Below, piece after piece: positions 4,204 to 63,972 of a stretch of 64,000 nt of DNA (the first letter of the stretch is position 1; every line of letters begins with the position of its first letter). This stretch comes from Bosea sp. NBC_00550. GTDB lineage: Bacteria; Pseudomonadota; Alphaproteobacteria; Rhizobiales; Beijerinckiaceae. Location: assembly GCF_026020075.1 (NCBI RefSeq), contig NZ_CP102772.1, positions 2,108,001 through 2,172,000 on the forward strand. The letters run 5' to 3'. The notes beneath the pieces were generated by a model. It was not told the origin of the DNA, ran no database searches, and saw only the letters and a list, made by a program, of their open reading frames with translations. A program made the position numbers and the translations under genes.

Positions 4204-4335
4204 GAGCATGATGATCCGGGACGGAACAGGTCGTCATGCTCGGGCTTGACCCGAGCATCTCTTGCCGAAGGAGTTTCCGTTGCCTTTTCCTACCTGAGAT
4301 TCTCGGGTCTACGCTTCGCTGCGCCCGAGAATGAC
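4204..4335. repeat. Dispersed palindromic repeat, type C (copy 1) with outer arm
   Basis: The core 4233-4335 begins GTCATGCTCGGGCTTGACC, whose GCTCGGG/CCCGAGC arms form a terminal hairpin, and ends CGCCCGAGAATGAC. An outer arm starting GAGCATGATGATCC precedes it from 4204. Positions 4232-4244 (CGTCATGCTCGGG) are a full match to the target guides of the IS110 bridge RNA at the right edge of the window and are unoccupied. Confidence 0.85.
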
Positions 4336-25122: not shown

Positions 25123-25139
25123 TTTCGCATTTCTGAAGG

Positions 25140-25562
25140 TGCCAGTCGGCCTGTAAGCCGGGTTCTGGATGGCCGGAGGATCGCTCCCCCGACGTGACGG
25201 CCATTCCTCTGGGATGCACATCGCTGCGCACCTCGAGCAACCAACCCGGACGACAGGGCACAGAAACCTGCCCCTCCCCGCTTGCGCGGGCAGCATCGTC
25301 CCTATTCGGTTTTGCTCCCGGTGGGGCTTGCCATGCCGTCCCCGTTGCCGGGTCCGCGGTGCGCTCTTACCGCACCTTTTCACCCTTACCCCGCGCAAGA
25401 AGGCCGAAGCCAACGGGCACGAGGCGGTTCGATCTCTGTGGCGCTTTCCCTGGGGTCGCCCCCGCCGGACGTTATCCGGCACCGTGTTTCCGTGGAGCCC
25501 GGACTTTCCTCCCCCGAAAGAACCTGAGCTCTTGCGGGAGCGGCCGTCCAGCCGACTGGCGA
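25140..25562 (-). ncRNA. rnpB: RNase P RNA, type A
   Basis: This is the catalytic RNA that trims tRNA 5' leaders. On the minus strand the conserved core GAGGAAAGTCCGGGCTCC lies near 25495-25512. The 3' region has CCCGGCTTACAGGCCGACTG. The ends form helix P1: GCCAGTCGGC at 25551-25560 pairs perfectly with GCCGACTGGC at 25141-25150. The length of about 420 nt fits alphaproteobacteria. A strong terminator follows at 25101-25122. Open frames over this region are spurious. The exact ends are approximate to a few bases. Confidence 0.95.
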
Positions 25563-62056: not shown

Positions 62057-62150
62057 GTAACAGATTGAAGAGCGCGCCCCCGTGCGGCTCACGCGCTTGA
62101 CCGGCCTTCCTCCCGCCCGATAGAGCCGGGTGCTGCGCAGGAGACGCCCG

Positions 62151-62684
62151 ATGACCACGGCCGCCCGGATTGGAATCGTCACCGTCTCCGACCGCGCCTC
62201 GGCCGGCGTCTACACCGACGAGGGTGGTCCCGCGATCCGGGACTATCTGGCGAAAGTGCTGACTTCCCCGTGGGAGGCGGTCGCGCGCGTCATCCCCGAC
62301 GATCGCAGGCTCATCGCCGAGACCCTGATCGAGCTCGCCGACCGCGAGGGCTGCTGCCTCGTCGTCACCACCGGCGGCACCGGCCCGGCCCCGCGCGACG
62401 TCACTCCGGAGGCGACCGAGGACGTGATCGAGAAGCCGATGCCCGGCTTCGGCGAATTGATGCGCCAGGTCAGCCTCGCCAAGGTGCCGACCGCGATCCT
62501 CTCGCGCCAGACCGCGGGCATCCGCGGCAGGACGCTGATCGTCAACCTGCCGGGGCGCCCGCGCGCTATCGCCGAATGCCTGGACGCGGTGATGCCGGCG
62601 ATCCCCTACTGCATCGACCTGATCGAGGGTCCCTACCTCGAAACCGACCCAGCTTTGATCACCGCCTTCCGGCCGAAGAAATAG
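62151..62684 (+). CDS. mog: Molybdopterin adenylyltransferase (Mog/MoaB family)
   Basis: The 177-aa enzyme activates molybdopterin with AMP before molybdate insertion. Family signatures are RIGIVTVSDRASAGVYTDEG, VVTTGGTGPAPRDVTPEATE (TGGTG binding loop), SRQTAGIRGRTLIVNLPGRP and the aspartate-rich start. The ATG at 62151 follows GGAG. It could support the IorAB molybdenum hydroxylase encoded 50 kb away. The IS110 element begins 9 bp beyond its stop. Confidence 0.93.
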   Translation: MTTAARIGIVTVSDRASAGVYTDEGGPAIRDYLAKVLTSPWEAVARVIPDDRRLIAETLIELADREGCCLVVTTGGTGPAPRDVTPEATEDVIEKPMPGFGELMRQVSLAKVPTAILSRQTAGIRGRTLIVNLPGRPRAIAECLDAVMPAIPYCIDLIEGPYLETDPALITAFRPKK

Positions 62685-62694
62685 AAGCACGTCA

Positions 62695-63645
62695 TCAACT
62701 CAGTTTGTTTTGGTCTCTGACGCGGGCATTTGCGATGACGATGATGCGTCGCATGATTGCGGTGAGAGCGACGATTGGCTTTTTTCCGTTTGCGATGAGG
62801 CGTGTGTAGGCGTCGCGCATGGCGGGGTCGTGCCTTGCGGCGGCCATTGCGGGCATGAACAGGGCGGCCTTGATTTCGGCCCTGCCGCCTCTGGTTGGGC
62901 GGTAGGCGTCTCGACTGCCGCTCTGGTTTGGATGAGGAGCCAGGCCTGCGAGTGCGGCGGCCTGGCGCCGGCTGATGCGTCCGAGCTCGGGCATGAGTGC
63001 GATGAGGGTGGCGGCGGTGGTCGTTCCGATGCCGCGGATGGAGCGCAAGGCCTGCTCGCTTCTGTCGGTGCGGGCGATGGTGCGCAGGGTCTCGGCGATG
63101 GTTTGCGCCAGGGCGGCGATCTGGGCTTTGAGGCAGTCGTGCAGGGCCTGGAGCGGGGCTTTGACCGGTTCGATGCCGGGAGCGTTGAGCCGGTTGGTGC
63201 AGGCCGTTCTCTGGGCGACGAGATCGGCTCTGGTCCGCACCAGGACCTGGAGGCGCTCGCGTGCCGGGGCGGGCGCCTGCCAGCGGATCAGCCGAGCGTG
63301 GCGCTCGGCGCCGTAGCGGGCAAGCGCCCTGGCATCGAGCGCATCGCTCTTCCCGAGCGTCCCATAGGAGCGGATGAAGGCCTTGACCTTGCGGGCATCG
63401 GCGCGATGGGCCGGGCAGCCGGCTGAGACGAGCGCCGCCAGCAGGGCGTCCTCATAGCCGCCCGTCGCCTCGCAGACGACGAGGCAGTCCGGGCCGAGCC
63501 CGGCTGCGAAGGCTGCCAGGGCCGAAGCCTCGTTAGGGAGACTGCCGAGGGTGTCGCCGCGGCTGTCGAAGACGACGATCCCGGCCTTGCCGACATCACA
63601 GCCGAGGAAACGGGAGGGTTCAGGGACCGTGGTGCAAACCGGCAT
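62695..63645 (-). CDS. IS110-family transposase (DEDD recombinase)
   Basis: The 316-aa protein has the RuvC-like DEDD domain in its N-terminal half: FLGCDVGKAGIVVFDSRGDT (first Asp), LVVCEATGGYEDALLAAL (Glu), GTLGKSDALDARALARYG (last two Asp). The C-terminal Transposase_20 domain follows (LRSIRGIGTTTAATLIALMP, AALAGLAPHPNQSGSRDAYR, GGRAEIKAALFMPAMAAARH), with candidate catalytic serines in the NQSGSRD segment. Length and frame are intact, so it may be active. The stop codon overlaps the left terminus of the element. With guide RNA it should recombine donor and target at the AT core. Confidence 0.95.
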   Translation of the reverse strand: MPVCTTVPEPSRFLGCDVGKAGIVVFDSRGDTLGSLPNEASALAAFAAGLGPDCLVVCEATGGYEDALLAALVSAGCPAHRADARKVKAFIRSYGTLGKSDALDARALARYGAERHARLIRWQAPAPARERLQVLVRTRADLVAQRTACTNRLNAPGIEPVKAPLQALHDCLKAQIAALAQTIAETLRTIARTDRSEQALRSIRGIGTTTAATLIALMPELGRISRRQAAALAGLAPHPNQSGSRDAYRPTRGGRAEIKAALFMPAMAAARHDPAMRDAYTRLIANGKKPIVALTAIMRRIIVIANARVRDQNKLS

Positions 63646-63659
63646 CGGGAGCTATCCTC

Positions 63660-63830
63660 GAAGGGCTTGTGATTGTCTGCGGGCGTTCGGCTCATGCGAA
63701 GAGGCCCTGGCAACTCACCAAGCGTGACAAGGAAGCGACCCGCAACCTCGATGACGACGGGCGAAAGCCCTGGCTCGGGACGGTCGACGAGTCGCGTCTG
63801 GTCCGGCCGGCCAGCCGGACCAGACATCCC
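63660..63830 (-). ncRNA. Predicted bridge RNA of the IS110 element
   Basis: Reading the minus strand, a 5' stem (arms 63825-63815 and 63806-63796, 11 bp perfect) is followed by two internal loops. The target loop is closed by CGACC/GGTCG and split by a GGGC-TTTC-GCCC hairpin (63770-63759). It holds CCCGAGC (63779-63773) and CGTCAT (63756-63751), matching GCTCGGG and CGTCAT at the insertion site. The donor loop is closed by GCTTG/CAAGC (63723-63719 and 63669-63665). It holds TGAGTTG (63717-63711) and CAGACAAT (63679-63672), matching the left and right IS ends. The order equals that of the IS621 bridge RNA. Exact 5' and 3' ends are not determined. Confidence 0.82.
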
Positions 63831-63873
63831 GCTCACGCGGAACAAAACCTCAATACCCCATCACAAACAGACA

Positions 63874-63972
63874 ATGCTCGGCTTGACCCAAGCATCTCCT
63901 GCCGAAAGAGACTCCCGCGCTTCGTCTTGCCTGAGATTCTCGGGTCTGAGCTTCGCTCCGCCCGAGAATGAC
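63874..63972. repeat. Dispersed palindromic repeat, type C (copy 5), split by IS110
   Basis: The sequence ATGCTCGGCTTGACCCAAGC at 63874 onward continues with CTGAGATTCTCGGGTCTGAG and ends CCGCCCGAGAATGAC at 63972. It is closely similar to copy 1 at 4233-4335. The missing GTC of its left end is at 62691-62693, on the other side of the IS110 element. Confidence 0.85.

Follow-up and report, generated by a model that had tools for sequence, protein, structure and literature searches.

The window, a 64,000-nucleotide stretch of the Bosea sp. NBC_00550 genome, closes with an insertion sequence of the IS110 group on the minus strand (62696-63873 plus an AT core), and this element very probably chooses its insertion site by means of a predicted bridge RNA whose guides match both its own ends and a palindrome of the host. 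Its assignment to the IS110 bridge-RNA type is well supported by the protein domains, an RNA region in the left end, guide-bearing loops and covariation on the target side, all of them read from sequence.

The element is 1178 bases long (63873-62696) and is read on the minus strand in the order AAGCCGAGC flank, AT (63875-63874), element, AT (62695-62694) and GACG. Its gene runs into the right end, leaving no non-coding sequence there, and the A of its TGA stop codon is supplied by the core. On the other side, upstream of the gene, the non-coding left end is long, with 230 bases between its core and the start codon, and a 6-base subterminal GTTTGT is found on both sides of the element. The insertion lies about 10 bases beyond the stop of an ORF (62130-62684) that presumably resembles moaB. 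The IS110 identity proposed in the first-pass annotation is borne out by a Pfam profile search, in which PF01548 and PF02371 both score above cut-off, and by matches of the recombinase to IS621 and ISCro4 at E about 1e-26. In an alignment with these two proteins, D17, E59, D101, D104 and S242 occupy the positions of the published catalytic residues (D11, E60, D102, D105 and S241 in IS621; PMC11208158), D17 being placed through ISCro4 with a residue count corrected for an N-terminal extension of two residues in the PDB chain; the protein thus has a DEDD RuvC-like domain and a Tnp domain with the catalytic serine. The features of the element are:

62695..63645, minus strand: IS110 recombinase gene, sole gene of the element (316 aa; PF01548 and PF02371)
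62696..62702, minus strand: right terminus, left donor TGAGTTG (copies compared)
63868..63875, minus strand: left terminus including the core, right donor ATTGTCTG (copies compared)
62690..62695, minus strand: core AT and right target GACG (flank comparison of copies)
63874..63882, minus strand: left target remnant GCCGAGC, one mismatch against CCCGAGC, and core AT (flank comparison)

The non-coding left end carries the predicted RNA, with the following parts:

63658..63845, minus strand: predicted bridge RNA region, ends approximate (consensus structure of 21 sequences with controls)
63796..63825, minus strand: 5' stem-loop of the predicted RNA (consensus fold, guide-open fold, covarying helix)
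63735..63795, minus strand: predicted target-binding stem and internal loop (consensus fold, guide-open fold)
63773..63779, minus strand: left target guide CCCGAGC (string match, copies, covariation)
63751..63756, minus strand: right target guide CGTCAT (string match, copies, relatives)
63665..63723, minus strand: predicted donor-binding stem and internal loop (consensus fold, guide-open fold)
63711..63717, minus strand: left donor guide TGAGTTG (string match, relatives)
63672..63679, minus strand: right donor guide CAGACAAT (string match, relatives)

The left donor guide is identical to the right end of the element (62696-62702), and the right donor guide is the reverse complement of the left end (63868-63875). 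On the target side, CGTCAT is the reverse complement of ATGACG in the downstream flank (plus-strand CGTCAT, 62690-62695), and CCCGAGC agrees with the upstream flank (63876-63882) at six of seven positions in the window copy and at all seven in the eight other copies in the genome. String matching thus places all four guides where the first-pass annotation had put them; its sites for the two termini also stand, but its labels follow the window order, since in element orientation the left end is at 63875, on the RNA side, and the right end at 62696. The annotation had further held such matches unlikely to be fortuitous, and when the 188-nt region was shuffled 20,000 times by mononucleotide, the four guides never came up in order. 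This is a weak null, with the first string shortened to CCGAGC; the nine genomic copies and the covariation described below weigh more against chance.

Folded to a consensus without constraints, 21 sequences yield a 5' hairpin, then the target-guide loop, then the donor-guide loop, each with its closing stem, which is the order that had been proposed. Both guide-bearing internal loops end in a helix of the GGGC/GCCC type, and a fold of the window copy with the guides forced open agrees with the consensus. In the consensus structure, 96.8% of cells are paired (shuffled mean 81.8, slid versions at most 47.9), the covariation score is 0.375 (shuffled 0.110, slid at most 0.092), and 13 of 23 pairs are changed on both sides (shuffled 7.7, slid at most 7); all five structure measures exceed 500 of 500 shuffles and every slid version, in an alignment made with MAFFT and not fitted to structure. 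Covariation is concentrated in helix 1 (the 5' stem-loop; columns 25-32/51-58), where all eight pairs have changes on both sides, and helices 4 and 5 of the donor loop are almost invariant. When the whole 230-nt leader is folded as a single unconstrained sequence, none of 200 shuffles is equally stable (z -3.26); in this fold, base pairing between the left terminus and the right donor guide closes the donor loop, against the open-loop model. The predicted transcript start lies past the left terminus. No bridge-RNA family of Rfam was matched in the whole window at the gathering cut-off or in the element at E up to 10. Elsewhere in the window, Rfam identifies a bacterial class A RNase P RNA (25138-25559, minus strand, 298 bits).

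An RNA region directly upstream of a recombinase gene could also serve mainly to regulate that gene without guiding anything, as small RNAs regulate the recombinase gene of ISPpu9 (PMC8450116), and regulation could coexist with guiding; as regulation by itself would leave both the fourfold match to ends and target and the target covariation unexplained, a purely regulatory leader is considered very improbable.

The source genome (6.27 Mb) holds nine copies of the element (L001-L009) that are 98-100% identical, eight of them with the full 316-codon frame; the ninth, L004, is without the right end, and its frame continues beyond the usual stop. The guides are identical in all nine, and leader variation is confined to other sites: a single substitution in L007 and an insertion of one base in L002, L004 and L008. 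Left flanks read CCCGAGC-AT in eight copies and GCCGAGC-AT in the window copy, confirming the single changed base reported for the occupied site, and right flanks read AT-GACG in all eight intact copies.

The target CCCGAGC-AT-GACG, which occurs at 110 exact uninterrupted sites in the genome and never as the reversed pattern, is part of a dispersed palindrome. In an alignment of the first 30 of the 110 sites, conservation spans GAGATGCTCGGGTCAAGCCCGAGCATGACG and ends after GACG, and the site shares its palindromic form and high copy number with REP sequences, which are short palindromes dispersed in many extragenic copies. Both arms contain CCCGAGCAT, found at 345 sites against 34 for the reversed pattern; eight of the 345 are left flanks of copies, and 110 of the other 337 continue with GACG, as only one arm of the palindrome does. 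Seven copies combine an exact left half with an intact right end, and all of them lie at the GACG arm, an outcome with a chance probability of 0.326 to the seventh power, about 4e-4, and this preference fits a right guide that distinguishes the two arms. Four uninterrupted target palindromes lie in the window itself, at 4232, 30077, 40152 and 40232, the last two in opposite orientation and 80 bases apart. Among loci L021-L050, a further palindrome, of the form GTCATTCTCGGGC...CCCGAGAATCTC, stands before many of the target palindromes and gives these repeats a composite look.

Relatives with about 45-70% protein identity extend the comparison beyond one genome. The covariation table comprises 20 of 35 loci and the window element; duplicates (L052 of L157, L132 of L061), same-genome copies of L158 (L156, L159), an interrupted locus (L065), loci with the left end absent or cut (L073, L075, L133) and elements only 31-36% identical (L070, L072, L074, L076, L077, L088, L103) were excluded. 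Left ends were placed by a conserved ATTGTCT, independently of the target. Rows with at least eight flank bases were scored, with the match free to slide over 22 bases whether the target was the element's own or foreign. The left targets are:

Left target CTCGCAAT: nine elements
Left target CTCGCGAT: L051, L066
Left target CCCGGGAT: L157
Left target CTCAGGAT: L057, L058, with guides CTCAGGAC and CTCAGGGT
Left target CACGGGAT: L062
Left target ACAGGAAT: L067, L071
Left target ACAGGCAT: L069, with guide ACAGGAAT
Left target CCGAGCAT: window element, 6/8 match

Over 19 elements, the left guide matches its own target with a mean of 7.74 of 8 positions and differing targets with 5.03, a fit equalled in none of 100,000 permutations; with one row per class, two of 40,320 orderings reach it, the true order included. 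The contigs of L064 and L068 begin six bases before the end and were left unscored; L064 fits at six of six positions and L068 poorly. The left guide of L065, which stands outside both table and model, fits at eight of eight. In that locus (about 1004-1170 and 2940), the predicted RNA is cut within the left donor guide by another insertion, flanked on both sides by GTGAGTTG, possibly an 8-base target duplication.

On the right side, all six target bases fit in 13 of the 16 rows with a right flank, and in L058 target and guide have changed together (ATGAGG with CCTCAT); the right target of L064 has one mismatch, and those of L051 and L157 do not fit their guides. The right end of L157, near 2466, has the flank ACCGGG, without fit to the right target guide; that of L051, near 2760, has the flank ATTGTG, perhaps with the left-end TGT left behind. 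In the recombinase tree, where 7 of 18 inner branches reach good support, L057 groups with L055, L059 and L060 (all CTCGCAAT) and L058 with L062 (CACGGGAT), both well supported; because the two CTCAGGAT elements stand apart, a guide matching CTCAGGAT probably arose twice.

These data bear on whether the recombinase alone might recognise palindromic repeats, the likeness of leader and target being a by-product such as a captured flank. The clade's targets are indeed alike in kind (a palindrome arm, AT, then GACG or GAGG), but the left guide lies within one of the internal loops of the covarying RNA and varies along with the target in otherwise conserved surroundings, and the right guide matches the other strand, which flank capture would not yield; recognition by the protein alone is hardly to be expected here. 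Guidance by a bridge RNA, the annotation's central claim, is upheld by guides that agree with ends and targets in the same-genome copies and by a left guide that follows the target in relatives. The check it had proposed, covariation of guides with termini and targets, succeeded on the target side and found the donor side nearly invariant.

The repeats of the hosts were compared by counting five target patterns in 20 genomes, of which 19 were scored: G737 was excluded, the guide of its element lying outside the five patterns, and G736, which holds both L064 and L066, was scored by L066. The source genome (G000) gave counts of 110, 10, 88, 35 and 0. An element's own target was the most frequent pattern in 12 of 19 hosts (not in G728, G730, G727, G734, G736, G722 and G723), a ranking equalled in 40 of 100,000 label permutations, and the log-count score in none of 100,000, with patterns drawn from the same elements, two of them covering two targets each, and with related hosts, several of them incomplete bins. 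The counts support a tendency, and no rule, for the target of an element to match an abundant repeat of its host.

The donor guides TGAGTTG and CAGACAAT fit nearly all rows and hardly vary, so the donor side is matched without providing a covariation test. One right-end base and the corresponding guide base have changed alike in L068, and the guide of L064 deviates from its right end at one position. The left donor guide reads TGACTTG in L067, L069 and L071, whose contigs stop before a right end with which to compare it; a search of their genomes at E 1e-50 found no second copy.

The right end also coincides with the end of the gene. The A of a TGA stop is the first core base in 17 of 24 cases (23 loci and the window); in L157 and L052 (one locus held twice) the stop is the TGA of TGAGTTG, the genes of L062, L075, L065 and L159 stop before TGAGTTG, and the right end of L053 was not found. 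CTGAGT or a similar sequence before TGA would be read as a protein end of the LS, VS or MS type, and such C-termini occur in 52 among the 120 proteins listed of 1850 found, some of those listed being 70-97% identical. Joining of the ends would moreover create a TTG/ATT -35 box, here from 62698-62696 and 63875-63873, and does so in every one of the 16 rows that include a right end; once the element is integrated, the TTG gives way to target bases (AGC here). The left end offers a partner:

63850..63855, minus strand: possible -10 box TATTGA, 17 bases after TTG/ATT (consensus match only)

In 15 of 21 rows, a TA occupies positions 21-22 of the left end, 17 bases after the -35 box; in two rows the spacing is 16 bases, and a -10-like TA is absent from four (L061, L067, L069, L071). 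A junction promoter has been published for the IS110 family (PMC11208160). The TGAGTTGAT end combines the last codons, the stop, the left donor, the core and, likely, the -35 box. Such an overlap of an end with a stop codon was not found in print, which is weak evidence of absence; the available text of PMC11208160 and PMC11187229 does not mention a stop codon.

Together, these features suggest a cycle in which the element would excise as a circle, whose joined ends would build a TTGATT-17-TATTGA promoter to transcribe the RNA. The recombinase would bind this RNA, whose donor loop would pair with the circle junction (TGAGTTG-AT-TGTCTG) and whose target loop would pair with CCCGAGC-AT-GACG; insertion would follow by exchange of strands at the AT core, with AT left on both sides. 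A broader proposal, nearly as probable as its opposite and put forward tentatively, is that of a clade in which the nine-base TGAGTTGAT does four jobs, an overlap that would lock the donor side and leave the target loop free to be retuned repeatedly to an abundant host palindrome, and in which the window element works with its left guide shifted by one base and the core unpaired on one strand.

The last point stems from the left target guide of the window element, CCCGAGC-CA-GGG, where seven matches are followed by CA at the core places; with CA rather than AT there, the guide does not pair with the core. In most relatives (tabulated rows), the left target guide ends in AT, followed by one base and GG. 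Here the left donor guide TGAGTTG is also followed by CC, not AT, and the right guides do include AT. A core within all four guide pairings, published for IS621 and not given in the source text as a condition of family membership, is a feature absent from this element. IS621 has a strong preference for a core paired on both strands (PMC11208160); here, either it is enough that the right guide pairs with the core, or transposition of the copies came at a cost.

It is conceivable that a former bridge-RNA element is now inactive in this genome and that its copies are remains of a past burst: one of nine is without its right end, and the unpaired core is a state that IS621 tolerates badly (PMC11208160). 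Near identity of the nine copies, with a full frame in eight, speaks against inactivity, as does the odd guide, which is common to all nine and with which they probably spread; inactivity is judged unlikely but carries some weight. Under RNA-guided insertion, the copies of this element are a natural case for whether the left guide must pair with the core.

Within the genus, 7 of 67 genomes match at E 1e-40, the source genome included, and most of the other matches are elements 36-39% identical; with the source genome again counted, 3 of 298 genomes of the family match at 1e-60 and 2 of 385 of the class at 1e-75. A plasmid search at an E limit of 1e-60 gave no match, and nine pattern matches in viral contigs were discarded, none being a relative by tblastn. 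The source genome also encodes a second IS110 recombinase, 38% identical (L155, G000:C1:2466216-2467130). Run on 64 sources, the RNA model gave no more than weak matches outside the clade, with 36.5 bits in L108, 29.4 in L088 and 27.4 in L081, and below 17 in the rest. By eye, L081 (2700-2990, 3860-3960) and L108 (1880-2180, 3050-3186) are distant IS110 elements of like RNA layout, with the donor guide ACAGTTGC and perhaps a GC core; their boundaries are approximate, and they are uncounted in the results. A literature search found no paper on IS110 in Bosea.

The element adds a predicted bridge recombinase with readable guides, small (316 aa in a 1.18-kb element) and far from IS621 in sequence, in a genome where nine insertions have occurred naturally and roughly a hundred natural targets are still free. 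Its clade forms a natural reprogramming series, in which the left guide matches nearly all of at least seven left-target sequences, and, if the host-repeat trend is true, guide change would explain how such elements settle in new hosts. Since bridge RNAs, REP targets and junction promoters have all been published, what is new is the element or clade and not the principle.

Among known systems, IS621 (PMC11208160, PMC11208158) shares with the element the RuvC-like and Tnp domains with their catalytic places, an RNA in the left end with the order 5' stem-loop, target loop and donor loop (here predicted), left guides like the top strand and right guides complementary to it, a two-base core, a junction promoter (here predicted) and a REP-type target (here a candidate). 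It differs in guides, donor and target, the last as the annotation had stated (CCCGAGC-AT-GACG here), in its CT rather than AT core, in the pairing of the left guide with the core, and in its right end, which here is taken up by the gene; the proteins are related at about E 1e-26 only. The annotation's description of a new RNA-guided recombinase with an AT core is therefore kept as regards the element or clade, but the AT core marks no break with IS621, because AT cores also supported IS621 recombination (PMC11208158). The best-scoring solved relative by sequence is the ISCro4 recombinase (PDB 9t56, known here by title). The IS1111 group with its seekRNA (PMC11187229) likewise has an RNA-guided DEDD transposase, an abutted-end circle and a junction promoter (guidance, circle and promoter being predicted here); its RNA lies downstream of the gene and its subterminal inverted repeats measure 7-17 bp (PMC11208160), whereas here the RNA region is upstream and only the 6-base GTTTGT is subterminal. 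Membership of IS1111 was rejected on the upstream RNA region and the lack of a non-coding right end. Finally, ISPpu9, ISPpu10, ISPa11 and ISRm19 (PMC1525189) resemble the element in that all or nearly all of their copies lie in REP sequences of the host (here a REP-like palindrome), and differ from it in their hosts and REPs and in having been described before guide RNAs were known.
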